In this document: positions 5,653 to 63,050 of the stretch, one piece after another | Numbering within the stretch: the first letter of the stretch is position 1 | Layout of the letters: each line of letters starts with the position of its first letter | Virus record (IMG/VR): IMGVR_UViG_3300021365_002389 | Location: 60,741-124,740 of that record | Direction: 5' to 3' (one strand) | DNA length: 64,000 nucleotides | DNA from: a virus | Position numbers and translations under genes: made by a program | Notes under the pieces: generated by a model | Databases searched by the model: none | The model's input: the letters and a program-made list of their open reading frames with translations, nothing else | Told to the model about the DNA's origin: nothing

Positions 5653-5975
5653 TGGTGGAGGTAGGGAGAATCGAACTCCCGTCTTGTCTAGTTCCGTAGA
5701 GAGGTCATTCACAAGGTTAGAACTGTTTTTTTCGTCGGACAGACCACTTGACTAGATTGTTTTATTACGGACAAAACAATCAAAATCACTAAAAGGACAC
5801 AGTATGGCTTTCTGTTTCTTGGCTGCCAGCGCCTCAAGTCAAGTCAGGTTATTAAGCTGCTTGTGCTAGTTGAAAATCGTCGTTTGCGATTAAAAGATAA
5901 GCGTTTTTAGTGAGCCACGCTTCCCTCACCCTTGCACCTTTTCTACTTTCCCATCAGTCGATACCGTTTACCCCC
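5653..5975 (-). ncRNA. ssrA: tmRNA (transfer-messenger RNA)
   Basis: A 323-nt tmRNA. The 5' acceptor strand GGGGGTA pairs with TACCTCC near the 3' end (one G-U), and CCA is encoded. The T-arm GGGAG-TTCGATT-CTCCC precedes the acceptor. The resume region GCAAACGACGAT and the stops TAATAA near 5850 frame the tag reading frame, which gives ANDDFQLAQAA. The tag matches the usual AND...AA pattern, but its last three residues are QAA rather than the common LAA. It would rescue ribosomes stalled on nuclease-cut host mRNA and mark products for proteolysis. Confidence 0.95.
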
Positions 5976-11827: not shown

Positions 11828-12298
11828 ATGTTTAGTTTTCTCACTAAAAGAGTTACACTTTTAAGTATACTAGCTTTAGTGTCTGCTATAGGGCTTCATT
11901 ATCATATAAAAGCTAACAGTCTTTACAAGACCGTATTTGCGAAACAATCTACATTCTATACACCGGGTCAACACGGTAATTGTAAATGGGTTGTCCACAT
12001 CAGTAATCGTATAACAACTGAACCCGGCGACAACGCCGCAGCCCAAATTGGCATTCCTGAAGTTATTAAAGATGGTTATATTGCTGGTATCTTACAGAAT
12101 GGACCCGGCAATTCTTTGCTGTTTGCTTTTAAGCTCCCAACACAATCCGATGAATCACCACCTATAATAATGACGGCATCTTATAGAAAAGATCAACTTC
12201 CGCTTAAACAAATTAGATTTCGTGTTTTCAATAGCACGGCTATGACAATGGTTCTTTACAATTCGTATGATGCCTGTGTCGAGGCCACAATGGAATGA
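11828..12298 (+). CDS. Exported protein with N-terminal membrane segment
   Basis: A 156-residue protein with a hydrophobic segment at residues about 8-26 (signal anchor or signal peptide) followed by a soluble beta-rich domain with two cysteines (GNCKW and DACVE). AAGGGG lies upstream of ATG 11828. It overlaps the next gene by 4 bases. The family is not recognised; export to the periplasm is inferred. Confidence 0.65.
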   Translation: MFSFLTKRVTLLSILALVSAIGLHYHIKANSLYKTVFAKQSTFYTPGQHGNCKWVVHISNRITTEPGDNAAAQIGIPEVIKDGYIAGILQNGPGNSLLFAFKLPTQSDESPPIIMTASYRKDQLPLKQIRFRVFNSTAMTMVLYNSYDACVEATME

Positions 12299-13551
12299 AA
12301 CGGCTAGTCTTATTATTGCCACTGATACTTACTTCTTGTTCGGCATGTATAGACGACGAAAAACTCATAAGACTTGAGTGTGTACCAGGCGAGAAACTTG
12401 TTTGTGATGAGTTGGGTCAAGATTTTCCGGCTGCTGATCCAATTGATGTTGCAAAAAGGGCAGGTCAATGTTCTTACGGCTTAAGAACTTGTACGACAAG
12501 CGGCTGGTCAGAATGTGTAGGAGCACGAGGACCAGCAGAAGAAATTTGTGATGGTATAGATAATGATTGCGATGTGGCTATAGATGAGACATATCCAGAA
12601 GAACATCAACTATGTGGATTTATTGAGGGCGCTGATTATGGCGTTGGCATATGCACTCCAGGTGTGATGAAATGCGACAATGGAGGTGTCTATTGTGATG
12701 GTCATACTGGGCCCTCTGATGAGATCTGTGATGGACTCGACAATAATTGTAATGGATCAATAGATGAAGGTATAGCCAATTCTACAGCTATTGTTTGTTA
12801 TGAAGGACCAGATGGAACTATGGCTGTAGGAGAGTGTCGTGCTGGTGTTCGATACTGTACAGATGGAGGCTTTGACGGACCTTGTGATGGTCAAATATTA
12901 CCAGCCCAAGAGCGTTGTGATAATCTAGATAACGATTGTGATGGAGAAGTAGACGAAGGGTTTGATACCCGTGGTGTAGATTTAGTTTTTGTTCTTGATA
13001 TTTCTGGTTCGTTCAATGAAGAGATAGAATCAATGATACAAGGTATTGCTCCGCTTTTAGACGACCCGATAACGAGCACATTTCGCTTTGGACTGGTTGT
13101 TGTAGGTACGGCAGGCAATGGAGAAAGAAGACCTCCATATCAGTACGCAAGAATGGTCTCTGACTTTGTTCCGGCTGATGAGTTTTTGGACATCCTAGAA
13201 GCCGGTAGAATGATACAAAGTTCTGGAGTGGAACCAACCATCGATACAATGTTTTGGTCGATGACCCTTTATCCTTTTTCTTGGAGATCCGGGGCACAAA
13301 AGGTAATTATAACGATGACGGATGAAGTAGCCCAAACCGTTTTGGGGAAGAACTGCGCAGAAATTTCTTCAATCGCTCAAGACGAACTTTTTGAACTTTT
13401 TGTTTTTGCTTTACAACCGCATCATAACACATTTCTAGCGTGTGTTCATGGAGAACAAAGAAGGCTATTCACTCCCGCCGTAAACTCTGAAACGGTTTTT
13501 ATCCAAATTAGACAAATTTTTGAGGACCTATGTATCGGTGATGACAGGTAA
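12295..13551 (+). CDS. VWA lipoprotein with MopE-type metal-binding repeats
   Basis: A 418-residue lipoprotein: signal peptide LLLPLILTSC with a lipobox Cys near residue 15. It then has three MopE-type repeats (CDGIDNDCDVAIDE, CDGLDNNCNGSIDE, CDNLDNDCDGEVDE) and a von Willebrand A domain whose MIDAS is DLVFVLDISGSFNE. The repeats bind calcium or other metals in known relatives and are typical of Myxococcota and other delta-type bacteria. Phage carriage is unusual and suggests capture from the host. The position is on the plus strand, against the genome trend. Confidence 0.85.
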   Translation: MKRLVLLLPLILTSCSACIDDEKLIRLECVPGEKLVCDELGQDFPAADPIDVAKRAGQCSYGLRTCTTSGWSECVGARGPAEEICDGIDNDCDVAIDETYPEEHQLCGFIEGADYGVGICTPGVMKCDNGGVYCDGHTGPSDEICDGLDNNCNGSIDEGIANSTAIVCYEGPDGTMAVGECRAGVRYCTDGGFDGPCDGQILPAQERCDNLDNDCDGEVDEGFDTRGVDLVFVLDISGSFNEEIESMIQGIAPLLDDPITSTFRFGLVVVGTAGNGERRPPYQYARMVSDFVPADEFLDILEAGRMIQSSGVEPTIDTMFWSMTLYPFSWRSGAQKVIITMTDEVAQTVLGKNCAEISSIAQDELFELFVFALQPHHNTFLACVHGEQRRLFTPAVNSETVFIQIRQIFEDLCIGDDR

Positions 13552-19856: not shown

Positions 19857-20156
19857 TTATTTAAAAGGATTACCCATATAGAAAGGATTTTCTCCGGCAC
19901 TGTGATCAGTGGCATCTAAAACTTCATTTATCTCTGTAAACTCGTCCATTAAGGCCATCTTAATTCCGTGTTGCATGGTTGCTGCGCTAGCCCCACAACC
20001 CTGACACCCTCCACCCATTTTTAGTTTAACAACTCCAGTATCTTCATCGGCTGAAACGATTTCTATCCAGCCACCGTGGGCAGCGAGATTCGGATTGATG
20101 TCATCCTTAACAAAATTTGATAATCTCTCTTGAAAACTATTATCTTTTACACTCAT
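19857..20156 (-). CDS. Nfu-type Fe-S cluster scaffold
   Basis: A 99-residue NifU C-terminal (Nfu) domain: NLAAHGGWIEIVSAD and the cluster-binding GGGCQGCGAS (CxxC) with hydrophobic surroundings. Family members assemble or carry 4Fe-4S clusters. It is translationally coupled to the small gene before it. The phage RecB/Cas4-like nuclease, which may need an Fe-S cluster, is one possible client; this is speculation. Confidence 0.9.
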   Translation of the reverse strand: MSVKDNSFQERLSNFVKDDINPNLAAHGGWIEIVSADEDTGVVKLKMGGGCQGCGASAATMQHGIKMALMDEFTEINEVLDATDHSAGENPFYMGNPFK

Positions 20157-20338
20157 TAAAAACCATTACATTCAGCAGGAAAAAGATCACCCCCCATATC
20201 GGAGGAACCCATAGAAGCCAATTCCTTGGGCACCTCATAAAACTCCATATCAATCATAAAAGTTTCTAAAGCATCTTGAATGGTAGGTGCCCAGATTGTA
20301 AAGGTTGTGCCACGGACTTCGATTTGAAAGCAATTCAT
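20156..20338 (-). CDS. Small hypothetical protein upstream of Nfu
   Basis: A 60-residue protein beginning MNCFQIEVRGTTFTIWAPT, with a helix (TIQDALETFMIDMEFYE) after a beta hairpin. It is expressed from a promoter of the shared module at 20357-20384, and its stop overlaps the Nfu ATG. The family is not recognised. Confidence 0.65.
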   Translation of the reverse strand: MNCFQIEVRGTTFTIWAPTIQDALETFMIDMEFYEVPKELASMGSSDMGGDLFPAECNGF

Positions 20339-20356
20339 ACTCTCTCCTTATACTCT

Positions 20357-20384
20357 AAGGTATCATCGATTTGTTACTTGTCAA
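20357..20384 (-). promoter_or_regulatory. Strong sigma70-type promoter, shared module
   Basis: AACTTGACA, 16 bases, then TACCTT preceded by TGA. The leader ATAAGGAGAGAG follows. The -10 box is the weakest of the set. Confidence 0.8.
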
Positions 20385-20404
20385 GTTTTTTATTTGTCTT
20401 TTTA

Positions 20405-20599
20405 CTACGCATATACAGAAATTGATCCTTCTGCAATTTTTGCAGAGTTGATTTTCTTTTGTCGTTTATCTTCTTTAATAATTCTCTCTGCTTCTCTGCG
20501 TGCTTTGATCTCAGCCACACGATGAGCATCAAAGTTCCACCAGGCAAAAGCAGGGCTAATAGAATACCAACCAGTAGCGTAAGTATTGGCATCGATCAT
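20405..20599 (-). CDS. Hypothetical small protein
   Basis: A 64-residue protein. ATG 20599 overlaps the stop of the phosphomannomutase gene and has CAGGAG 7 bases upstream. Its codons show the RNY bias of real genes. Aromatic N-terminus (FAWWNFD), then a highly charged helix with many Arg, Lys and Glu. The alternate overlapping frame was rejected. Confidence 0.6.
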   Translation of the reverse strand: MIDANTYATGWYSISPAFAWWNFDAHRVAEIKARREAERIIKEDKRQKKINSAKIAEGSISVYA

Positions 20600-21369
20600 A
20601 GGTACTCCTGTAGTTGAAGAATTAAATCCGCTGGTCCATCAACCATATGATATTTACCACATTTCATAGCAATGTCAAGGTCATTTCCGTCTTTGCAAAT
20701 CTTATCTCCAAAAAATACACACTGATCTGGAGTTTCTTTGATATTTTTTAAAGCATAAGTTTTATCCCAACCTTCACGAGTAATATCAATAGAGATCTGT
20801 CCTCCTAATCGAAAAGATAGCCCCCAACCTTTGAAATCCTTTCGTAGTTGGTCCACTATTTTTTGTCTTTCTCCGCTTTTATAATCCCACTTAACATAGT
20901 CCTCTCTCTGAGTGCTTGTGCAGTTTCTCCCCACTACCGAAAAGTTAATCTGACTGTCACGCCATTCAATAAACGTCCCTGTTTTAATTTTAGTGTGGGT
21001 CTCGTAAGCTGTCTTTAGAAGGATATTAACAATATGATTAATATCAGCCTCAGAATAAAAATCCATTAATGAGGTTGTGTGAATTAATTCTGGTTCAATT
21101 GGTTTTGTCTCGTCATCCATATCAAGGTTGCAATTCCAAACCCTTGTGCCATTACAAGAAAATACTCGCTCAAAAAGTTGTAATAAATTATCATTAGAAA
21201 TTTGCTCTTCAATTTTTACCATGTCAGAACCAGTAACTAAATATTTCTTGATGGAATTAGGAACAGACTTCAAGGCCTCAAGGACATCTTGTGATATTGG
21301 TTCCCTAGCATCAGTTAGGGTTCCATCCATATCAAACAGTAGAGCCGCAGGCATAATTTTGTTTTTCAT
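20596..21369 (-). CDS. Phosphomannomutase-like HAD hydrolase (eukaryotic-type)
   Basis: A 257-residue HAD-fold protein: ALLFDMDGTLTDAR (catalytic Asp pair), TGSDMVKIEEQI, TGTFIEWRDSQINFSVVGR and FRLGGQISIDITREGWDK, then FFGDKICKDGNDLDIA. These match the PMM1/PMM2 family (Pfam PF03332), which interconverts mannose-6- and mannose-1-phosphate. It is translationally coupled to the preceding gene. It could feed GDP-mannose to the glycosyltransferases at the left of the window, although the loci are far apart. Confidence 0.82.
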   Translation of the reverse strand: MKNKIMPAALLFDMDGTLTDAREPISQDVLEALKSVPNSIKKYLVTGSDMVKIEEQISNDNLLQLFERVFSCNGTRVWNCNLDMDDETKPIEPELIHTTSLMDFYSEADINHIVNILLKTAYETHTKIKTGTFIEWRDSQINFSVVGRNCTSTQREDYVKWDYKSGERQKIVDQLRKDFKGWGLSFRLGGQISIDITREGWDKTYALKNIKETPDQCVFFGDKICKDGNDLDIAMKCGKYHMVDGPADLILQLQEYL

Positions 21370-21754: not shown

Positions 21755-22732
21755 TCAAGAAATTATTTCAAAATCTAATATTTCAATATCTTTAGATAGT
21801 TCTTCTTTTTGATCTTTGCATAAATCTGTTGAAAGATACTTTTTATTTCCATCGCAAAGTATAGTGGCTACATTTGATGTTTCTTTAAGTTCAGCAGCCT
21901 TCAAAATAGCTCCAAAAACGTTTGCTCCGGACGAAATACCAACAGATAAGCCTAACTTATTGATTTGTCTAGCAATATTTATCGCATCCGAGTCTTTTAC
22001 TCGTAAAACAGGGCTAAGTGCTTGTAAATCCACAATATTTGGTATAAAGCTGTCCCCAATGCCTTCAATTCGGTGTCCGCCATCTTCATTTTTACTTGGA
22101 AGGATAGGGTAAACCTTAAAGTCGTTCTTTTTTTGCGAAAAGTAGTGATAAAAGCCCATAACAGTGCCTCCGGTACCCATACCAGTAATAAAAACGTCTA
22201 AATCACCTAAATTGTTAATCTTAAGTGCATTTTCAAGCTCAGGAGCAGTAGAATTAACGTGTGCCAGGATATTCCAAGTATTATTAAACTGTTTTGGTCC
22301 AAAATAACCGTTTTTTTGACTTTTTTGCTCTGCTAACTCAATACACTTTAGAAATCCGCCGTCTTTAACACTTATTTCGTGTAATTTAGCCCCATAAAAC
22401 CTTAAAACCCTCTTTCTTTCCTCTGAGAGCCAATCTGGCATATATATTTCTACTTTATGACCTAAGAAAGCCCCCATGGCAGCGAAAGCTATTGCTGTGT
22501 TGCCACTTGAAGCCTCAACTATTGTATCATTAGCGTCTATAGTGTTAAGATCATACGCTGATTTAAGGATTTGCATGGCCATGCGGTCTTTTATGCTTCC
22601 AGTGAAGTTAAAAGTCTCATATTTTGCTAATATAGTGCGTATTTTATCTTCAAACTTACATGTGAGCTTAACAGTTGGCGTGTTTCCAACCAAAAGCTGT
22701 AGTTTTTTTAATTTTTCAATCTGTTGAGACAT
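21755..22732 (-). CDS. Cysteine synthase-like PLP enzyme
   Basis: A 325-residue fold-type II PLP enzyme: NTPTVKLT, the Schiff-base Lys in FTGSIKDRMA, SSGNTAIAFA for substrate, and GMGTGGTVMG for the PLP phosphate, as in CysK/CBS. It would make cysteine or a related beta-substituted amino acid from O-acetylserine-type substrates. It sits in the same operon as PrkA and the YeaH/SpoVR genes. Phage-borne cysteine synthases are uncommon and may supply cysteine or sulfur for Fe-S or redox work. Confidence 0.82.
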   Translation of the reverse strand: MSQQIEKLKKLQLLVGNTPTVKLTCKFEDKIRTILAKYETFNFTGSIKDRMAMQILKSAYDLNTIDANDTIVEASSGNTAIAFAAMGAFLGHKVEIYMPDWLSEERKRVLRFYGAKLHEISVKDGGFLKCIELAEQKSQKNGYFGPKQFNNTWNILAHVNSTAPELENALKINNLGDLDVFITGMGTGGTVMGFYHYFSQKKNDFKVYPILPSKNEDGGHRIEGIGDSFIPNIVDLQALSPVLRVKDSDAINIARQINKLGLSVGISSGANVFGAILKAAELKETSNVATILCDGNKKYLSTDLCKDQKEELSKDIEILDFEIIS

Positions 22733-22743
22733 TCACTAACCTA

Positions 22744-24687
22744 CTAACTATCTCTCCATAGGTTATTAGCAGCAAATTTAATAACTTCCTCGGCTGATTC
22801 CTCATTGTATCCGTATTCATCGATCAAAGTTTGCACCATCTCGTTGTACTTCCCTTGTTGCTTCTTGTCACGACTTTTAGATTTGGTGATGATCCTAGAG
22901 ATTTGCTTAACAGACGATGTTAACTTGGTCTCAATAGCCTCCTTGAGGGGCGCATAAGACTGCCAATCTACTTTCTCACCTCTCCTAAGTTTGGAGAACA
23001 TAAAAGCAGTTATATCAACTCTGAAATTTTCCTTCGAAGTTCCGGTTATACCGATCTGTTGTTCAATGGATTCCATAAAATTCTCATCTGGGGCTATTTC
23101 TTCGTTGGTAACAGAATCTTTAACGGTTGCCATGTTAACATAAGCCTCGGCATGGTCTAAGTAATTATTAAATAAAGCTTCTGCTTGTTCGTCATAAGCC
23201 GAAACAAAGGCTTTGGTAATCTCTTTCTCTAAAATATTAAGATATTCATCATGAAGCGTTTTACCTAGAAAGTCTAGATACCTGTTTCTGTCATCTTCAA
23301 CAACAATCTGATCTTTTACTTGTTTTATAAGAGCATCCCGAATTGATATTGGAGTTACCATGTTCTTTTCGCTGTCAGACAGGGCAGCGTCAACTGCCTT
23401 CATAATAAATCTGGTAGAGATGCCAGTCATACCTTCATCACGAGCTTCGTCCCTTAGATCGTTGATATCAATCTTTTTAACAGTGCCCCTTTCAATGACA
23501 TCTTGCCCATCATACAGTTTCATTTTTGTAAGGGCGTCTACTTTATTAGACGGATGCAATCGACTCAACACAGCAAACATGGACGCAACCTCTAGGGTGT
23601 GAGGAGCCACATGCCCATTAAAGTCAGACAAGCCTAAAAGCTTCTCATAGATCTTTACCTCTTGGGAAACCTCTAAAGAATAGGGGACATTGACTCGAAC
23701 AATACGGTCTAAGATGGCCTCGTTGGTGTTCTCTGATTTAAACTTGTTCCATTCTGCCTCATTACAGTGAGCTAAAATAACACCATCAAAATAAATCATC
23801 GGACCCTTACCGGGAGAGGGAACGGCTTTCTCTTGAGTAGCTGTGATCATCGTGTGTAAGAATTCTATCTCGTTCTTGAACACCTCAACAAACTCTACTA
23901 TGCCTCGATTACCAACATTAAAGGCACCATTTAACGACAACACTCTAGGGTCGTCTTCGGCGTACATATCAAGCTTTGAAATGTCTTCACTGCCTATCAG
24001 AATAGTAACATCCTGGCTGTTGGCATCCATGGGTGGTACCACTCCAACACCACGCCTACCACGAACCGAAAATGAAGACTCAGTTATTGGCATCGCAGTA
24101 TAATCATTGCCATACTCTTCTTTTAGTTTATAACGACAAACAGGACAAAGGTCTCCCTCTATTCTTATGCCATAAATTTTTTGAAATTCTTCTCTCAAAG
24201 AACGGGGTATCAAATGAAGAGGTTCCTCGTGTATTGGACAACCCTCAATATGATACATGGGTTCCGTCTCTTCTAGGGCTCCTTTGATGTGTTCCATGAG
24301 GGCCGACTTGCCAGCGCCTACAGGTCCCAAAAGCAACAAGACCTGACGGCTCTCTTCGCCCTTCAGAGATGCTGATCTTAAGAATCTCATAACCTTTGCA
24401 ATAGATCTCTCCATGCCGAAGAACTTACTTTGAAAATAATCGTAGGTTCTCAATTCTTCGCTATTAAATATCTTATTGCAACGCTCATCAGATGTTTTCA
24501 TCTTCGTAACACCATGGGCTGCCATGGCGTCATATAATCTTTTGTGAGCCAGCTTGGTTGCGTCAGAATTTTTTTCAATAATTTTTAGGTAATCGGATAG
24601 CGTACCGTGAAACTTTTCTTTTTTCTTTTGTTCTTGGTGTTTACCAACTAACTTGAGAAATTTATCAGATTTTTTACTATTAGACAT
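22744..24687 (-). CDS. prkA: PrkA-type serine protein kinase (YeaG family)
   Basis: A 647-residue protein, matching the 644 residues of Escherichia coli YeaG. An N-terminal AAA-type domain carries the P-loop GPVGAGKSAL at residues 121-130. The PrkA C-terminal kinase-like part follows from about residue 400 (DINDLRDEARDEGMTGIST). No truncation is seen. In bacteria the kinase works with YeaH and SpoVR in stress and stationary-phase signalling, and all three genes are adjacent here. It begins two bases after the SpoVR stop. Confidence 0.95.
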   Translation of the reverse strand: MSNSKKSDKFLKLVGKHQEQKKKEKFHGTLSDYLKIIEKNSDATKLAHKRLYDAMAAHGVTKMKTSDERCNKIFNSEELRTYDYFQSKFFGMERSIAKVMRFLRSASLKGEESRQVLLLLGPVGAGKSALMEHIKGALEETEPMYHIEGCPIHEEPLHLIPRSLREEFQKIYGIRIEGDLCPVCRYKLKEEYGNDYTAMPITESSFSVRGRRGVGVVPPMDANSQDVTILIGSEDISKLDMYAEDDPRVLSLNGAFNVGNRGIVEFVEVFKNEIEFLHTMITATQEKAVPSPGKGPMIYFDGVILAHCNEAEWNKFKSENTNEAILDRIVRVNVPYSLEVSQEVKIYEKLLGLSDFNGHVAPHTLEVASMFAVLSRLHPSNKVDALTKMKLYDGQDVIERGTVKKIDINDLRDEARDEGMTGISTRFIMKAVDAALSDSEKNMVTPISIRDALIKQVKDQIVVEDDRNRYLDFLGKTLHDEYLNILEKEITKAFVSAYDEQAEALFNNYLDHAEAYVNMATVKDSVTNEEIAPDENFMESIEQQIGITGTSKENFRVDITAFMFSKLRRGEKVDWQSYAPLKEAIETKLTSSVKQISRIITKSKSRDKKQQGKYNEMVQTLIDEYGYNEESAEEVIKFAANNLWRDS

Positions 24688-24688
24688 T

Positions 24689-26005
24689 TTAAAACTCCCA
24701 AGACTCTTCTTCTATAACGGTGGTAAATTTTACACCACCATTCCATAGTTCGTTAATGTATTCAAAAACTTTATTGGCTTCAGACAACTCTAAGTCCCTT
24801 CCATCATGTTCATGTTCCAGGATTAGCGTGCCGTCTTTATCAAGTTCTTTAACAACAACTACGGGAACACTGTTAAGTCCTACATTAGTAATTAGGTCAT
24901 CACGAACTGTTCGCCATGTAGCTTCTCCGGAAACTTCAGTAATTTTATTATAGCCGTCTTTCCTATTGAAAGAATAACTGAATAAATTCAACTCTTTACA
25001 AAGGTATTCATCAAGGTATGTTTTAATGAAAGTTTCGTCACTGTGAGTCTCTCTTACCCTAAGACACTCCTCAAACCCTTGATTTTCCTCAATATATTTA
25101 AACATTCTGAAACCGAGGTGATATGGGTTTATTCTTCCCATATGTGGTCTAACTACTTGATTATGCAGACGGATAAAGGAAAGAAAATATTCGTCGGGAA
25201 TACCTAGAGCATTTACGATCTTTTCGTGAATCATGCACGCCCAGCCCTCATTCATGATTTTTGTGCAAGCTTGGGGAATGAAATATAAAGACTCTTGTTC
25301 GACAATTCTTATCAGGTCTCTTTCCCAGGGTCTTAACATTGGATTTTTATCAGCTATAAATTTCAACAAATTATTGTCAGGCTCTAGCGGTATCTTGCTA
25401 AGATCAAAGTGATCCCATCGTCCGGACTTATCGTTCATAACAAGTTTCTCATAATATTTTTTAAGCTCTTTATGGTTTCTTCTTTTTACACCTGGCGTTC
25501 TGGGTACTTGGTATTTAATAGCATGACAAGCATCCAGTATCTTTTCAACATTATCTATTCCAATGTGAGGATCTTCTACATATTTTTTAACTCTTTTGCT
25601 AGCAGATTTAAACCTATCAATAGCATTGTCTGCTCTCGTTTCAGAAAACATTCTATTGTTTTTAAAGAAGTCGCTATGTCCAACACAATGAGCCATTGTA
25701 AGTATATGCGTTGGCATAGGGTTTTCTGTCATCAAATAGGATATGCTGGGGTTTGAGTTTATAATCATTTCGTATGGTAATCCAGACATACCGAGGTTAT
25801 ACTCTGTTTGGATACGGTCAAAAGATTTGCCGTAGGACCAGTGCCTATAATGAGTTGGTATACCAGTATATGCCATATGCCCCATCATCTCTTTATAGTC
25901 ACATATCTCATATTCGATCGGGTACCAATCTAGCTCTAAACCCTCGCCTAAGGTACAGATCTTTTTATCCCATTCTTGGAGTTCACTCATCGACCAATCA
26001 GCCAT
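24689..26005 (-). CDS. SpoVR family protein (YcgB-like)
   Basis: A 438-residue SpoVR-family protein: EGLELDWYPIEYEICDYKE, HWSYGKSFDRIQTEYNLGMSGLPYEMIIN and later MNEGWACMIHEKIVNAL are family signatures. E. coli YcgB is about 510 residues, so this one is shorter. ATG 26005 has GGAGGT seven bases before it and overlaps the end of the YeaH gene; the longer upstream frame is rejected. The biochemical role of SpoVR proteins is not settled. Confidence 0.92.
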   Translation of the reverse strand: MADWSMSELQEWDKKICTLGEGLELDWYPIEYEICDYKEMMGHMAYTGIPTHYRHWSYGKSFDRIQTEYNLGMSGLPYEMIINSNPSISYLMTENPMPTHILTMAHCVGHSDFFKNNRMFSETRADNAIDRFKSASKRVKKYVEDPHIGIDNVEKILDACHAIKYQVPRTPGVKRRNHKELKKYYEKLVMNDKSGRWDHFDLSKIPLEPDNNLLKFIADKNPMLRPWERDLIRIVEQESLYFIPQACTKIMNEGWACMIHEKIVNALGIPDEYFLSFIRLHNQVVRPHMGRINPYHLGFRMFKYIEENQGFEECLRVRETHSDETFIKTYLDEYLCKELNLFSYSFNRKDGYNKITEVSGEATWRTVRDDLITNVGLNSVPVVVVKELDKDGTLILEHEHDGRDLELSEANKVFEYINELWNGGVKFTTVIEEESWEF

Positions 26006-27191
26006 CTTGTCTACCTCCAAATAGCTTTTTAAAAGCCGGCCATATATCTTTGTTTTCTGATAATCTTATTCTCTTAAAATTCTTGTCCTCTATAAGCTTA
26101 GTCCAGTCCCATAGTTTCTTTTCGCCACTTGAGTTACCAAACAAAGCATACTCATATTTGCTCAATGCACCTATCTCAGTATAACACATCACTTGGTTTA
26201 TTTCTTTTAAACGCCGGAAAGCAGAAAGTGTTTCTTTATTATCGATAGCCCAGTTATCCCCATCGCCACAATAGAAAGTGTATATGTTCCAGTTGTTCGG
26301 GTGATAACGTTTATCAATAATTTCTTCAACTTTTATTAATCCCGTAGACACAAGAGTTCCACCATTAGGAACTTGAGTAAAAAACTGTTCCTCATTAACC
26401 TCATGAGCATCAGCAGTATGAGAAACAAACACCACATCAATAGACGAATATTTATGGTTTAAGAATTGGTATAAAAGAAAGAAGAAACTTCTAGCTAAAT
26501 ATTTTTTGTTAGTTGTCATTGAACCCGAAACATCCATTACAAAAAACACAACCGCAGCGGTATTTTCTTTTTTGACTGGGGCTATATGTTTGTAGCGCAA
26601 ATCACTCTCGTGGAAAGTAAATCTTTCCCCGCTTTCAGGATCATATGAACCAGCCTTTATGGCTGCTTTCTTTCTTCGAATCTTTTGTTTTATAGTTTCT
26701 TTTTTTGATAGCCGTGGTCTAATACCATAAGATCTTTTGCCTTTTCTTTTCATTTTCTCTTGAGTTGTAAACTTAAAGTTTTTCTTTTCTAATTCTGGTA
26801 ACTCAAGATCATTAAAAAGATAACCAGCCAATTCCTCTAGGGACATTTCTATTTCGTACATTTCTTCGCCAGGCTCATTCCCTGGTTTGTTTCCAGGTCC
26901 ATTTTGCTGTTGGCGTTTTCTGTGCCCAACCTGTTGTCCTTTGGATAAATCTTTGCCAGGCGCTGAGCCGACTCGTTTATTCTTTTCGTTTGTTCCAAAG
27001 ACAAAGTGATGTTCTTTGATTCCCTTGACAGGGATTCTTATTTTCTTATTACCGTTTTGGCCAATTATACTTTCTTCGGCAACGACATCTCTGACGCTTT
27101 CTTTGATGGCTTTTTCTATTTTTTGACGATGGCGGCTTCTATCACTAGCCGCTCGATCTGCTATAGTTTTATGTTCTCTAAATACACTCAT
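25998..27191 (-). CDS. YeaH/DUF444 von Willebrand A protein
   Basis: A 397-residue member of the YeaH family (DUF444). The N-terminus is highly basic (RSRHRQKIEKAIKESVRD). The VWA domain has MIDAS VFFVMDVSGSM near residue 226 and a later TLVST and GDGDNW acidic pair. E. coli YeaH is about 427 residues. As the first gene of the set, it probably bridges the kinase and SpoVR; that is known only by association in bacteria. Confidence 0.93.
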   Translation of the reverse strand: MSVFREHKTIADRAASDRSRHRQKIEKAIKESVRDVVAEESIIGQNGNKKIRIPVKGIKEHHFVFGTNEKNKRVGSAPGKDLSKGQQVGHRKRQQQNGPGNKPGNEPGEEMYEIEMSLEELAGYLFNDLELPELEKKNFKFTTQEKMKRKGKRSYGIRPRLSKKETIKQKIRRKKAAIKAGSYDPESGERFTFHESDLRYKHIAPVKKENTAAVVFFVMDVSGSMTTNKKYLARSFFFLLYQFLNHKYSSIDVVFVSHTADAHEVNEEQFFTQVPNGGTLVSTGLIKVEEIIDKRYHPNNWNIYTFYCGDGDNWAIDNKETLSAFRRLKEINQVMCYTEIGALSKYEYALFGNSSGEKKLWDWTKLIEDKNFKRIRLSENKDIWPAFKKLFGGRQDG

Positions 27192-27228: not shown

Positions 27229-27522
27229 TTAAGCGAATGTCAGTTCTGAAATTTCTACTTCGTGCGAATCGCCATCAGTGTCAAGTATTTTGGCAGACCC
27301 TGGTGTGCCCCCTCTGGGACTGCGATAAAGCTCTACAATCTCACCTGATCTAGGTACCCTATCGTAGTCAACTTTTTGTCTGCCGCTGGCAGTTGTTTTC
27401 ATTACTTTTTCTAGGGTGGACCACTTTACAACATCGCCGACGCTGAAATCGCTTTCTAGGCGAAAAGCCTCTTCAATTTCTTCTTTGATAATTGTTCTCA
27501 GTAAGGATTTTGTAATTTTCAT
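27229..27522 (-). CDS. KITK-tagged small barrel protein
   Basis: A 97-residue protein. The N-terminus MKITKSLLRTIIKEEIEEAF is the clearest copy of the recurrent N-terminal helix, and the rest (FSVGDVVKWST, GEIVELYR) is a GDLV-type small barrel. Placed last in a run of tagged genes. A virion-packaged protein delivered into the host is inferred. Confidence 0.7.
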   Translation of the reverse strand: MKITKSLLRTIIKEEIEEAFRLESDFSVGDVVKWSTLEKVMKTTASGRQKVDYDRVPRSGEIVELYRSPRGGTPGSAKILDTDGDSHEVEISELTFA

Positions 27523-27523
27523 T

Positions 27524-28675
27524 TTATTCTTTATCTCCCATTGTGGATGCGTACCATTTAATTAAGTCTTGGGGGGATCTAACTCGGCTCATCCCTCTTC
27601 CTCCCTTTCCTCCTGACACTGACAGCCGACTGGCAAGAGAGCCATCCTCTGAAAAGACTGGCATGTTGCTTCTAATCTGTTTAGCATATTTTTTAGTTGC
27701 CTCATCTTCGCCAGTTGCCATTTTATATAAGGCATCGTGAGCTTTTTGTACTTCTTCATCTGAGCTAATAGCTACTAATTTTTTTAGCCTTTCTTTTACG
27801 GGGTCATCTCCCTTAAACGCTGCGCTATGCATGGCAGCAATGTCAACACCAGTCTGCGCTAAAGGTTTCCGAAGGTCAGCACCAAGTTTAGCGCCGGCAA
27901 TAGCTAAAGAAATACGTTGGGCGACAGCCATTGGATCTAAATCCTCTACGAGGAGTTTATTTTCAATTTCCTCTTTGATAATTGTTCGCAAGTAGTCTTT
28001 TGTAATTTTCACTTGGGAGTTCTCCTGCATCCGCCTTTTTCTAAGTAGTTCTCTCATTTCCGTAACATCTTTTCTGTTTGCCGCAGTAGACTTCTTAATC
28101 TTCTTAGCAGGCTGGCTGGCAGCGAGCTTATCTAAAGCCCCTTTGATCCTATTTGATTCATTCTCTGCTTTTTCAATTTCTTTTTCTGTCACAACCTCTG
28201 CTAACTCACCCATAAGATTTTTAAGCTGTCCGCTCATCGCTTCAACAGCAGTGACAATTCTAGGACCTATGGCTGGCAGTCTTCCCATCCTATCTGCCAC
28301 ACTTTGTATTATTCTCGCAACTCCCTGAGCAACTCTAGGATTTGATGCTGCGGCTTGAAACCCTTTGCCGGCTGCGGAGACTCCAAGCGTTGCGCTGACT
28401 GTTATTATTGCCTGTATGAGTGCTTGTTGTGTATTCCCGGCCCCAAGGTTTAAACCGATTGAAGCTAGCCCAAAAGGCATACCGATAAAAGGTATGGCGG
28501 ACGCTCCTTGTAGATAATCATCAACCCCAGCGTCTTTTAAATCTTTTCTGAATTGCTCTCTTGGGTTAGGACTTTTTGCCAGGTCTACATAATACTTTCC
28601 GGCAGTTCGAAGTATCTCTATGGGATTATAATCGCCAAGGTCTTCTAGGATAATATCTTGCTTCTTTTTTTTCAT
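27524..28675 (-). CDS. Tagged membrane-active-like protein with internal KITK helix
   Basis: A 383-residue protein. It has a hydrophobic Gly/Ala-rich region at residues about 55-105 (IPFIGMPFGLASIGLNLGAG), which could insert in membranes. A copy of the tag helix (VKITKDYLRTIIKEEI) lies inside the chain near residue 223, as if two tagged modules had fused. Ends overlap the next gene by one base. The function is unknown; a virion pilot or pore-like role is speculation. Confidence 0.55.
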   Translation of the reverse strand: MKKKKQDIILEDLGDYNPIEILRTAGKYYVDLAKSPNPREQFRKDLKDAGVDDYLQGASAIPFIGMPFGLASIGLNLGAGNTQQALIQAIITVSATLGVSAAGKGFQAAASNPRVAQGVARIIQSVADRMGRLPAIGPRIVTAVEAMSGQLKNLMGELAEVVTEKEIEKAENESNRIKGALDKLAASQPAKKIKKSTAANRKDVTEMRELLRKRRMQENSQVKITKDYLRTIIKEEIENKLLVEDLDPMAVAQRISLAIAGAKLGADLRKPLAQTGVDIAAMHSAAFKGDDPVKERLKKLVAISSDEEVQKAHDALYKMATGEDEATKKYAKQIRSNMPVFSEDGSLASRLSVSGGKGGRGMSRVRSPQDLIKWYASTMGDKE

Positions 28676-34988: not shown

Positions 34989-36029
34989 TTAGGCTCCCAG
35001 GATTTTGGAGAGGTGGCTACCGACAGCACCTTCGTTGGCACCGTGGAACTTGACCACGTTTTCTTGGACACCAGCTTGGCTGATTACCGACCAGAGCTTC
35101 ATGGCTGCTTCGCTGGGAAGCGTCACGAAGTAGTTGGCAAGGTTCTCGACATGCTCATCGCTGAACTCAGCTTTGCAGATCTCTTCTGCCTCGACCTTTT
35201 CGATCATAGCGCAGTGCTCGTTGAGGGAGAAGGCAGCCAGAGCTTCAACTCGGTCACCGTTGAGGAGTTGCTCAACCGTCACAACCCGCTCGTAGTTCTT
35301 GGCGTAGTCGTTGAGAGCCACAGCAGCTTCGAAGCCGACGAAGCTTTGAGCCAGGTTGAACATTACTGGACCAGCTTCAAGAGCATCTGCCTGCTTGAGA
35401 ACTTTGTCAAGCCGGTCCCAGCTACGACGGCTGGGGTAGCGTTTGTTAGGTTCGATATCCTCATTGTGTTCGAGGTGACCACGGTTCTGGTTGATGAAGT
35501 CCCAGACGAGGCCATCAACATTGTTCTTAGCCCAGGCTAACCAATCTTCAACCGTCGGTTCGATGTCCCAGACTGACCAGCGGTCAAGTTCCGCAGGATC
35601 CATCTCATTGACTTGGTAGTTCTCACCGTGCTCACCGCCGTTGACGGCAGCGAAGATGATCGTGTCAGGATGAAGGTTGTGACCGTTGAGTTTCCGACTG
35701 TCCGTCAACTCGAAGATTCCTTGTCGAACTTCAAGGGTAGCTCGGTCAACCTCATCAAGGAAAAGGCAGACAGGCTCTTCACAAGCCTGCTTGAACCAAT
35801 CAGGTGGGTTGAAGCTGGTGCGATTGCCTTCAACGCTAGGCAGCCCAACCAAGTCACCCTCGGTCATCTGGCTGGCACGACGCTCAACTACAGGCAAGCC
35901 GGCATTAGCAGCAAGCTGATAAACAACTTGGCTCTTGCCGATACCGTGGCGACCACGGAGAAGTACTGGAAGTTTGGCTGCACTCACTGAAGGTGCTAAG
36001 CTCACGAAGGTTTTGAAGTCTACGGACAT
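34989..36029 (-). CDS. MoxR-type AAA+ ATPase
   Basis: A 346-residue MoxR-family ATPase: Walker A LLRGRHGIGKSQV near residue 28, Walker B VCLFLDEVDRAT, and sensor-type AAVNGG. It ends in a C-terminal helical part. It is next to the VWA metallopeptidase, as in many bacterial MoxR-VWA operons, but each has its own promoter. The DNA is GC-richer than the flanks, fitting a highly expressed gene. A chaperone role in maturing metalloprotein or enzyme complexes is likely. Confidence 0.9.
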   Translation of the reverse strand: MSVDFKTFVSLAPSVSAAKLPVLLRGRHGIGKSQVVYQLAANAGLPVVERRASQMTEGDLVGLPSVEGNRTSFNPPDWFKQACEEPVCLFLDEVDRATLEVRQGIFELTDSRKLNGHNLHPDTIIFAAVNGGEHGENYQVNEMDPAELDRWSVWDIEPTVEDWLAWAKNNVDGLVWDFINQNRGHLEHNEDIEPNKRYPSRRSWDRLDKVLKQADALEAGPVMFNLAQSFVGFEAAVALNDYAKNYERVVTVEQLLNGDRVEALAAFSLNEHCAMIEKVEAEEICKAEFSDEHVENLANYFVTLPSEAAMKLWSVISQAGVQENVVKFHGANEGAVGSHLSKILGA

Positions 36030-53653: not shown

Positions 53654-55397
<1,744 letters not shown>

Positions 55398-59779: not shown

Positions 59780-60083
59780 GAGATTTGCTACTAGATTTAA
59801 TAAGTGAGTTAACAAGATCCTGCACCTCTTTATCATTATTTCTCATCCGGTAAACTAGTTTACTACCATCCTCTGTAAACTTTAAGTCAGCCACGTCTGT
59901 CTTATAATACATTAACATTGTTAAATAGGCTTGAAGATTGAAATCAGGTTCTGTGTTTACTTTATTTCTTATCCACTGCATAACTCGTGCAGCGAAAAAG
60001 GCCTTCTCAGCATGAACTAAGTTGTCCTCGCCGTCTTTGATGTAGCCTTCTTGTTCTAAAAGCTTAAGGACGTCAAACGTCAC
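59706..60083 (-). CDS. Hypothetical acidic-tailed protein
   Basis: A 125-residue helical protein (MTFDVLKLLEQEGYIKDGED) with a Ser/Asp/Glu-rich tail. Coupled by ATGA with the zeta-like kinase gene. Family unknown; possibly an inhibitor or adaptor of that kinase, given the pairing. Confidence 0.55.
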   Translation of the reverse strand: MTFDVLKLLEQEGYIKDGEDNLVHAEKAFFAARVMQWIRNKVNTEPDFNLQAYLTMLMYYKTDVADLKFTEDGSKLVYRMRNNDKEVQDLVNSLIKSSSKSHEEPTSEEGNTPSDTKSSDRDSES

Positions 60084-61012
60084 TGTTCCGCCTTTCTGTC
60101 CCTCATTTGTTGGATGCGTTCGGCAGACTCTCGGTCGCCACGAAAGCCACCGGCTCCGCCAGGCTCTAATGTCTGGACACCTCGACGCTCAAGTTCTCCT
60201 TCAATCCATGACTGTCCAAACTTGTTTTCAACCGGGGCGGCTACGAAGTCGTTCATAGCCTTGACTGCTGATTCAGGAGGAGCGCCTGGCGCATCGTTCA
60301 TGACGATAGTGAAGTCGTTACCAAAAAGTTGAGCGTAGGCTTTCAGGTTGTTCTGCACCTGATTCCAAAGGTCTGTAATAGTTTTCTCTGGGAGAACTCG
60401 GTCTCTGCCGGCATTGCGCTGTTGGGCGACTTCTTCGGAAGTATTTACAAATACCATAGCAGTATCGTATCCTAACTTCTCCATCTTTTCTTTTTGTCTC
60501 GCAATTTTCTCATACTCTCGCCCAGTTCCATCAACAAGAACTCCAAGACGACCACTCTCGTAAAAGGCACGCTGGGCTGCAAGCTGTCCTTTGGCTATGT
60601 TGCGAATAGATTCTGGGTCTTCCCCCTGAATGATATCCCACAACTCGTCGCTGGGCAATGATTCTATGTCGGCTAGGTCTTTAGGATTGATGCCCATTTT
60701 CAGAAGCCCCTTTTCAAAGAGGTTATCAGAGTTGACATACTTAATGCCGGCTGGAAGGTATGAGGTGTGCTCCTCAAAATACTTCTGGTAGGGTTTTTCA
60801 AGGGAGCGAGCGCCCATCAACATATCAGCCACGAAAGATTTTCCGCTGCCTGGTCCACCAGCCGTAAAGATTGCCTTGAGGATGCCGGGATCAAAAACCC
60901 CTTCCTTTAACACTTTGGGGCTTTCCAGTAGCCACTGATGTTTTTCTGTCCAATAAACAGAAACGACCTCAGTAATTAACTTACGGAGGTCGTTTGCGTT
61001 AAGAGAGTTCAT
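60080..61012 (-). CDS. Zeta-toxin-like kinase with N-terminal tag
   Basis: A 310-residue protein. An N-terminal helix (NANDLRKLITEVVSVYW) resembles the packaging tag, then a P-loop AIFTAGGPGSGKSFVAD near residue 55 and VDGTGREYEK, VFVNTSEEVAQQRN, like zeta toxins or PNK-type kinases. Zeta toxins phosphorylate UDP-N-acetylglucosamine. The partner or antitoxin is not obvious. Confidence 0.7.
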   Translation of the reverse strand: MNSLNANDLRKLITEVVSVYWTEKHQWLLESPKVLKEGVFDPGILKAIFTAGGPGSGKSFVADMLMGARSLEKPYQKYFEEHTSYLPAGIKYVNSDNLFEKGLLKMGINPKDLADIESLPSDELWDIIQGEDPESIRNIAKGQLAAQRAFYESGRLGVLVDGTGREYEKIARQKEKMEKLGYDTAMVFVNTSEEVAQQRNAGRDRVLPEKTITDLWNQVQNNLKAYAQLFGNDFTIVMNDAPGAPPESAVKAMNDFVAAPVENKFGQSWIEGELERRGVQTLEPGGAGGFRGDRESAERIQQMRDRKAEQ

Positions 61013-61686: not shown

Positions 61687-62010
61687 CTATTCTTCTTGAA
61701 AAACTCCTGCTGTTTTTAGTTTCTTGAAAGCAGCGTGCTCAATTTGGCTGATTCTGGGGAAGCTCACATTCATTCTTTCTGCCACTTCTCGTAAGCTTAA
61801 GCCATTGTCGTGCTTCCTGGCGCAAACGACAGCACAGTTTAAATCACTAGAGTAATCCATCCAGTTCCTACACTTGTCTTGATCGCACTCCAGTTGCCAC
61901 TTCTCGTGGACTTCGAAACAAGTTGGGTTCTCATTGTACTGAGTCTCAAATTCAGTTGGCTCACGATCAATGTCTGCTTGCTGATCTGCTGATGATTTAC
62001 GATAAAACAT
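61687..62010 (-). CDS. Sigma-70 region 4-like DNA-binding protein
   Basis: A 107-residue protein with a C-terminal HTH (LSLREVAERMNVSFPRISQIE) typical of sigma region 4. It has a Cys-rich middle (CFEVHEKWQLECDQDKC). It could recognise -35-like DNA and direct host polymerase to late or middle genes. Confidence 0.7.
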   Translation of the reverse strand: MFYRKSSADQQADIDREPTEFETQYNENPTCFEVHEKWQLECDQDKCRNWMDYSSDLNCAVVCARKHDNGLSLREVAERMNVSFPRISQIEHAAFKKLKTAGVFQEE

Positions 62011-63050
62011 TATTTTTGTTTCCCTTCTTGAGAAAAAATATGAGTGCTACTTTCATGGGTTCCGGCAGAAGTTTGCCTCGCCCACTCCGCCTTGTGTTGT
62101 AGTTCTGATAAATTCCGAGCGCCGCTGTAAGAAAATCCAGACTTGATACCTCCGCTCAGGTCTGTCAAAATATCTAAGACGCTACCCTTGAATGGGATAT
62201 AAGACGCCACGCCTTCTGGGGTGGATGATTTGCTGCGCCAGTCCAGTTGGGCGTCTTTGGAGGCCATCCCTCTATATTCTTTTACTCGGTTATTGTCAGG
62301 CAGGTGAATTACTTTTCCTGGACTTTCGGTGGTGCCTGCTAATAAAGAGCCGCACATTACAAAATCTGCGCCGGCTGCTAAAGCTTTAACAATATCTCCC
62401 GAGGTTTTGATGCCGCCGTCTGCGATGATCGAGACTTGGCGGTCTGTTCTTGCGCAGTCGAAGATCGTTTGGAGGCCGGGTAAACCGTGGCCTGTGACAG
62501 TCCTAGTAGAACAAATGGAGCCGCCACCAATGTTACACCGTACAGCGTCAGCCCCCCAATCAGCAACATCGTTAATACCCTCCAGCGTGCAGACGTTTCC
62601 TGCGATGATGTAAATATGATTATCATATTCGTTTCGCAATTGCTCAAGAGCTTTTTTTACTAAAATATGATGACCATGAGCCACATCAATGCACAAAACA
62701 TCAACACCTGCTGCGATCAAAGCCTCGGAACGCTCGATGAAATCGCCCGTCACACCAACGGCAGCGGCCACCTGTCCCGACCAGTTTGACACTTGTGTGA
62801 CTTTTTCTGCCATGCTTACTTGTTCTTGAATAGTATTATATCTATGAAGAACAGCCATGCCTCCGGCACGATACATGGCGATTGCCATTTCATGCTCCGA
62901 CACAGTGTCCATCGGGGAAGCGATAATCGGCATCTTGAGATGCCTGTGTCCCATCCTATTGCCGATCTCAACTTCACTTCTGCTCGTAATATCACTGTAC
63001 TGAGGCACTAGTAACATATCATCGTAGGTGATAGCCTCTTTAAACTTCAT
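62010..63050 (-). CDS. IMP dehydrogenase/GMP reductase-family enzyme
   Basis: A 346-residue TIM-barrel enzyme without CBS domains: YDDMLLVPQYSDI, GADAVRCNIGGGSICSTRT (catalytic Cys loop) and YRGMASKDAQL. GMP reductase has the same length, but the C-terminus has an IMPDH-type HESSTHIF end. Which reaction it performs is not clear. Part of purine metabolism with APRT and the nucleosidase. Confidence 0.82.
   Translation of the reverse strand: MKFKEAITYDDMLLVPQYSDITSRSEVEIGNRMGHRHLKMPIIASPMDTVSEHEMAIAMYRAGGMAVLHRYNTIQEQVSMAEKVTQVSNWSGQVAAAVGVTGDFIERSEALIAAGVDVLCIDVAHGHHILVKKALEQLRNEYDNHIYIIAGNVCTLEGINDVADWGADAVRCNIGGGSICSTRTVTGHGLPGLQTIFDCARTDRQVSIIADGGIKTSGDIVKALAAGADFVMCGSLLAGTTESPGKVIHLPDNNRVKEYRGMASKDAQLDWRSKSSTPEGVASYIPFKGSVLDILTDLSGGIKSGFSYSGARNLSELQHKAEWARQTSAGTHESSTHIFSQEGKQK

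Follow-up and report, generated by a model that had tools for sequence, protein, structure and literature searches.

The genes yeaH, spoVR, and prkA stand side by side in a T4-related virus, and the trio in its fixed order is a conserved, strongly selected trait of the large uncultured virus group to which this virus belongs. The reading favored here, with a probability of about 0.4, is that the three proteins constitute an AAA+/VWA machine by which an infected host short of nutrients is both throttled and protected. The window (the whole 64,000-nucleotide stretch of DNA that was analyzed) is part of a 124,740-bp virus record.

The trio locus and its viral source

The trio consists of three intact genes on the same strand, occupying positions 22744-27191 (Table 1). 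The first-pass annotation had described the genes as intact and adjacent with almost no spacing, and this description stands: all three proteins have Pfam matches well outside the range of chance, the yeaH stop and the spoVR start overlap by 8 bp, and a gap of 1 bp separates spoVR from prkA. The mechanical open reading frame for spoVR begins at TTG 26020; the start is most likely the ATG at 26005, because a Shine-Dalgarno sequence (GGAGGT) lies inside yeaH at the usual distance 5' of that codon. With this sequence and the overlap, yeaH and spoVR are translationally coupled. The T4 late promoter (TATAAATA) was sought and is absent from the coding strand.

Table 1. Features of the window, in window positions
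Feature	Position	Strand	Description	Evidence
yeaH	25998-27191	-	First in trio; YeaH/YhbH-type (DUF444), VWA with complete MIDAS; 397 aa	PF04285
yeaH stop/spoVR start overlap	25998-26005	-	8 bp, ATGGCTGA	Read from sequence
spoVR	24689-26005	-	SpoVR/YcgB-type; 438 aa; ATG at 26005	PF04293 + PF24755
prkA	22744-24687	-	PrkA/YeaG-type AAA+ with PrkA C-terminal domain; 647 aa, full length	PF08298 + PF06798
PALP/cysteine-synthase-like enzyme	21755-22732	-	11 bp downstream of prkA, same gene run	PF00291, 3.3e-55
NifU-like Fe-S protein and phosphomannomutase/HAD-like protein	19857-21369	-	Same gene run, downstream of trio	
Two adjacent proteins sharing a motif	27229-28675	-	KITK-LRTIIKEEIE, N-terminal in one, internal in the other	
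tmRNA	5653-5975	-	Full-length phage tmRNA	RF00023, 84 bits
Separate VWA protein	12295-13551	+	Weak match; MopE-like metal-binding motifs	
Second AAA+ protein	34989-36029	-	Dynein-related	AAA_5
GroEL	53654-55240	-	Phage GroEL, 528 aa	
Zeta-toxin/polynucleotide-kinase-like protein	60080-61012	-	Near the IMPDH/GMP-reductase-like gene	
IMPDH/GMP-reductase-like gene	62010-63050			

The gene run continues past prkA into a PALP-type enzyme, a NifU-like protein, and a phosphomannomutase/HAD-like protein; a PALP gene, present close to the trio at 12 of the 91 viral loci, is a neighbor outside the conserved module. The motif shared by two other adjacent proteins (Table 1) has the look of a signal for targeting or processing. 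Elsewhere in the window, a tmRNA (the RNA of trans-translation) that was not called by ARAGORN has a tag reading about ANDDFQLAQAA-stop, and the best matches to the GroEL in phage collections are ~45% identical.

The viral origin of the locus is secured by a separate 190,528-bp viral contig (G005), a near-identical twin that matches window positions 12747-37191 at 99.95-99.98% and encodes a T4-type Gp23 capsid gene. Gp23 is present in 9/9 large trio-bearing records (172-306 kb) other than the window's own record fragment, on which none is found. The two objections that the first-pass annotation had raised against itself, a bacterial chromosome and a chimaera created by an assembly join, are thus both ruled out by the viral record and by the near-identical, Gp23-encoding 190-kb contig. 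The closest capsids from isolated phages to the trio-bearing Gp23 share ~44-45% identity (Flavobacterium phage immuto, Microcystis phage Mel-JY01, and Rhodothermus phage RM378), and a DNA-level search of phage records gave no match. The label "marine" for this virus group is suggested by the names of metagenome-assembled genomes (MAGs) and by published ocean viromes (PMC8940887), not by sample data.

Sequence features of the three proteins

The PrkA protein is full length, as had been proposed, with the AAA_PrkA profile (PF08298; 5e-140, residues 29-384 of 647) and the C-terminal domain profile (PF06798; 3.1e-79, residues 386-638) both covered end to end, and a solved homologue (PDB 9xip) matches at 5.8e-99. 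The earlier statement that the family motifs are retained is also borne out by the Walker A lysine (K127) and K430 (equivalent to E. coli YeaG K426), both kept throughout the viral clade, and by the five MIDAS residues of YeaH, though Ser takes the place of YeaG R232, on which the function of E. coli YeaG depends, in the window PrkA and in its clade. Most Bacillota have Ser here too, so R232 is a lineage-specific rather than a family-defining residue. The designation of PrkA as a kinase is contested, since B. anthracis PrkA has negligible kinase or protease activity (PMC13001217) while the K116A and K426A variants of E. coli YeaG fail to complement (PMC4664914), and the kinase activity of the phage PrkA is uncertain.

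YeaH matches the DUF444 family (PF04285; 3.7e-104, 349.5 bits) and carries a complete MIDAS set (D220, S222, S224, T279, and D310) that is invariant across 37 sequences. Its AF2 model matches VWA/MIDAS domains, including those of Rea1 and of NorD, the VWA component of the NorQD complex, both of which are tied to AAA+ machines (PMC13036017). An AAA+ gene beside a MIDAS-type VWA partner is likewise the arrangement of the MoxR AAA+/VWA chaperones (NorQ-NorD, RavA-ViaA, and CbbQ-CbbO); the resemblance is one of architecture only, as the window PrkA fits the AAA_PrkA and PrkA C-terminal models instead and does not match the MoxR-clade models (AAA_5/AAA_3). To our knowledge, the MoxR systems have no counterpart of the third gene, SpoVR.

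SpoVR matches PF04293 over profile positions 1-404 of 407 (1.8e-119, 399.6 bits) and PF24755 (SpoVR_C) at 3.1e-7 (30.8 bits), and its AF2 model is confident (pLDDT 87). The residues H106, H110, E253, G254, and A256, which make up an HxxxH and EGxA core, are invariant in all aligned sequences (292 rows, near-duplicates included). On the basis of motif conservation and weak hits, HxxxH together with NEG[WF]A may resemble the metal ligands of gluzincin peptidases minus the catalytic Glu. An alternative role for the trio, in which SpoVR would act on RNA and so control its translation or stability during infection, is suggested by the RNA crosslinks formed in vivo by B. subtilis SpoVR during sporulation (PMC12456014). 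This role is improbable given that no RNA-binding domain was recognized in the phage SpoVR, that a fold search against the PDB returned nothing at E <= 0.001, and that the invariant residues have the appearance of metal ligands.

The phage proteins are divergent from the bacterial versions sampled, with best identities of 59%, 47%, and 46% for PrkA, SpoVR, and YeaH, respectively. Both PrkA and YeaH score below the curated cut-offs of the corresponding NCBIfam equivalogs (399 bits versus 576 for PRK15455, PrkA family serine protein kinase; 371.4 bits, 5e-111, versus 467.95 for TIGR02877, spore_yhbH). Such a complete yet divergent trio could interfere with the host PrkA system or take its place, as a decoy or dominant variant blocking entry into dormancy or a defense of the host; a Gly where Walker B would have its glutamate and the absence of the C-terminal CxxC of Bacillota PrkA would agree with this explanation. 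It is nevertheless quite unlikely: Pseudomonadota, to which the functional E. coli YeaG belongs, also have Gly at this position, the retained Walker A lysine, K430, and MIDAS residues together with very low dN/dS make the proteins look active, and there is little reason for a decoy to comprise three genes.

Gene order and distribution

Scans of viral contigs with each protein showed that relatives nearly always adjoin the other two genes, with exceptions at contig ends. The order YeaH-SpoVR-PrkA on one strand was found in 91/91 complete viral relatives (complete trios with non-identical SpoVR, nearly all from IMG/VR and at most three from MAG-binned contigs), mostly with some tens of bp between genes. 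With a broader profile, the number of PrkA relatives recovered from IMG/VR is at least 491, some of which fall outside the viral clade of the window. In a prevalence survey based on Gp23, most relatives were short fragments; two long contigs (183 and 175 kb, with Gp23 57-58% identical) are without SpoVR, which indicates that the module is dispensable in some relatives.

The phage trio resembles the bacterial prkA-yhbH-spoVR operon in that the same three families are full length, adjacent, and on the same strand; in E. coli, by contrast, yeaG and yeaH lie together and ycgB is elsewhere in the genome. The order in the window is a circular permutation of the common PrkA-YeaH-SpoVR order, and its description as unusual in the first-pass annotation is correct with respect to 75 of the 78 bacterial loci with scorable order, which have PrkA-YeaH(-SpoVR). 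The remaining three (L480, L481, and L482), on longer stretches from a single branch of related Bacillota with PrkA ~40% identical to that of the window, have YeaH-SpoVR-PrkA, and the idea of this order as a phage hallmark was dropped on their account. The order is therefore unusual but not exclusive to phages, and it is no proof of phage-specific design.

Among other phages, four cultured Thermus phage lineages (phiYS40, phiLo, MN1, and Lalka8) have the same three families, arranged as in the window, with PrkA ~32-34% identical; in phiYS40, unlike in the window, one additional ORF separates SpoVR and PrkA. The megaphages LR745206, LR756502, LR756504, and LR756511 are also large phages with PrkA, SpoVR, and YeaH, but differ from the window in having the bacterial order where the genes are contiguous; three keep the common bacterial order, and the SpoVR of LR756502 is located elsewhere. 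Since YeaH-SpoVR-PrkA loci fall on three distinct branches of the PrkA tree, this order probably originated, or was passed on by inheritance, on more than one occasion. In Enterobacter phage LAU1, yeaG-yeaH lies at the extreme end of a 30.8-kb record beside tail genes and is probably flanking host DNA of a prophage.

Single genes of the trio were known from phages before: phiYS40 was annotated with SpoVR and a serine kinase, and the jumbo phage RsoM2USA with SpoVR (ORF28) and PrkA (ORF30) (PMC8504454). No gene of the sporulation class was more abundant than spoVR in viromes from the oxygen-minimum zone of the Eastern Tropical North Pacific (PMC8940887); those single genes were read as sporulation genes, whereas the present data comprise a full ordered module and its phylogeny. 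In the literature searched (few subscription papers, and exclusive of the phiYS40 genome paper), nothing was found that presents the three genes together as a module recurring in phages.

Phylogeny and selection

In the PrkA tree, the viral group forms a single clade with support 99, and PrkA paralogues of Bacillota with 53-59% identity to the window protein lie nearby; statements on this group are made with L353 and L356, which have the bacterial order and carried the viral-group label in this tree by mistake, set aside. The SpoVR and YeaH trees likewise contain one viral clade each (support 100 and 98, respectively), again near Bacillota paralogues, with an exact sister group that varies by gene. 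Some Bacillota genomes (L190-L197) hold two PrkA paralogues, one conventional (37-40% identical to that of the window) and one viral-like (54-58%). In each of the three trees the Thermus phages make up a clade of their own, and in the PrkA tree three megaphage proteins fall among Pseudomonadota and one with Bdellovibrionota. Approximately unbiased (AU) tests rejected both the joining of the viral clade with the Thermus phages (p = 0.0004) and the placement of all phages in one clade (p ~ 1e-63), and a single origin of phage PrkA is rejected with them. The module was therefore acquired by phages on at least four occasions. The trio that the first-pass annotation had reported on a phage is thus complete and intact as stated, but it is not peculiar to this phage, being a module of a broad virus group that has been captured several times.

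Bacterial sampling covered relatives in Bacillota, Pseudomonadota, and Bdellovibrionota and plasmid records, and because it was limited to these, the true donor may be closer than the Bacillota. Apparent bacterial relatives with 62-65% identity in public MAGs of Legionellales, Halobacteriovorax, and Methylococcaceae (L180, L181, and L182) carry the viral trio and are probably virus contigs binned with bacterial genomes in error; one of them has a length of 306 kb and carries Gp23, and the Halobacteriovorax genome has another PrkA with 34% identity.

Within the viral clade, the protein distances of the three trio members correlate with one another (r = 0.74-0.84), and the trio distances correlate with those of Gp23 (r = 0.55-0.83, nine genomes). 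dN/dS is 0.011-0.053 in close pairs for which dS could be estimated, the dS of the window itself being saturated. The trio thus evolves as a unit under strong purifying selection and follows the capsid gene, and the repeated capture of the whole set by unrelated phages argues that the three proteins work together as a functional unit. Cargo genes are common in large phages, but the idea that the trio consists of functionless passengers or an assembly artefact is scarcely credible: the artefact is already refuted by the second near-identical contig, and the passenger explanation is opposed by the invariant order of the 91 trios, the low dN/dS, and the repeated capture.

Proposed function

YeaG and YeaH of E. 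coli work jointly as a "metabolic brake" that quiesces metabolism under nitrogen starvation, and yeaG/yeaH mutants recover faster from starvation with lower survival (PMC4664914, PMC10954441). YcgB, YeaH, and YeaG co-occur across species, and loss of yeaH or of ycgB (the latter reported there as unpublished) leads to antimicrobial-peptide sensitivity (PMC2375023). By analogy with this brake (PMC10954441), the steering of host dormancy that the first-pass annotation had suggested for the phage trio is plausible.

The trio would have been acquired as one unit from a bacterial lineage near the Bacillota PrkA paralogue and would then have descended largely vertically in the large T4-related (Gp23-capsid) virus group. 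A single coupled message would yield the three proteins together; PrkA would assemble into an ATP-driven AAA+ ring, YeaH would serve as an adaptor docking on it through the VWA/MIDAS domain, and SpoVR may be a third subunit or an effector. The resulting machine would remodel or modify host targets, so that a nutrient-limited infected cell is throttled and kept viable until a large, slowly replicating phage finishes. Complex formation, the target, and the host effect of the phage trio are what we infer here.

This host-throttling machine is favored because of the intact, coupled genes, the conservation in 91/91 trios, the single viral clade in each of the three trees, the coevolution, the low dN/dS, and the repeated capture, as well as the fold match of YeaH to VWA partners of AAA+ machines (NorD and Rea1; PMC13036017), the conservation of both brake residues (YeaG K116 and K426) in the phage PrkA, and the abundance of spoVR in oxygen-minimum-zone viromes (PMC8940887). 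Counted against it are the negligible activity of B. anthracis PrkA (PMC13001217), the loss of R232, and the two relatives without SpoVR. The position of the Lalka8 trio, between the portal/minor head protein and TerL, also weighs against it, as this position fits a virion role too.

Such a role defines the main rival, in which the AAA+/VWA machine would act in the manner of a chaperone on the phage's own head, tail, or replication proteins. Besides the Lalka8 arrangement, this rival draws on the location of the phiYS40 trio near the terminase, on the GroEL encoded by the window phage, on the tracking of Gp23 distances by the trio, and on the maturation of client proteins by AAA+/VWA pairs such as NorQD (PMC13036017). 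It is unlikely, however, in that the trio lies far from gp23 (~77 kb in G005 and ~110 kb in a second contig, G009), its neighbors vary among viruses, and relatives with similar Gp23 are without the trio. The host-throttling reading can be extended, tentatively and with some doubt, to a self-contained three-protein machine that phages have repeatedly domesticated and that serves a widespread group of T4-related viruses as a dedicated system for keeping infected hosts in controlled quiescence.

Implications

PrkA-YeaH-SpoVR is a widespread bacterial stress module whose biochemistry is without consensus, and the cultured Thermus phages that carry the trio make the function of the module (PrkA as a kinase, an ATPase remodeller, or both) testable. 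If the trio controls host quiescence, it would help to account for the success of large phages on hosts that grow slowly or starve. Viral spoVR would then no longer be read as a "sporulation" gene.
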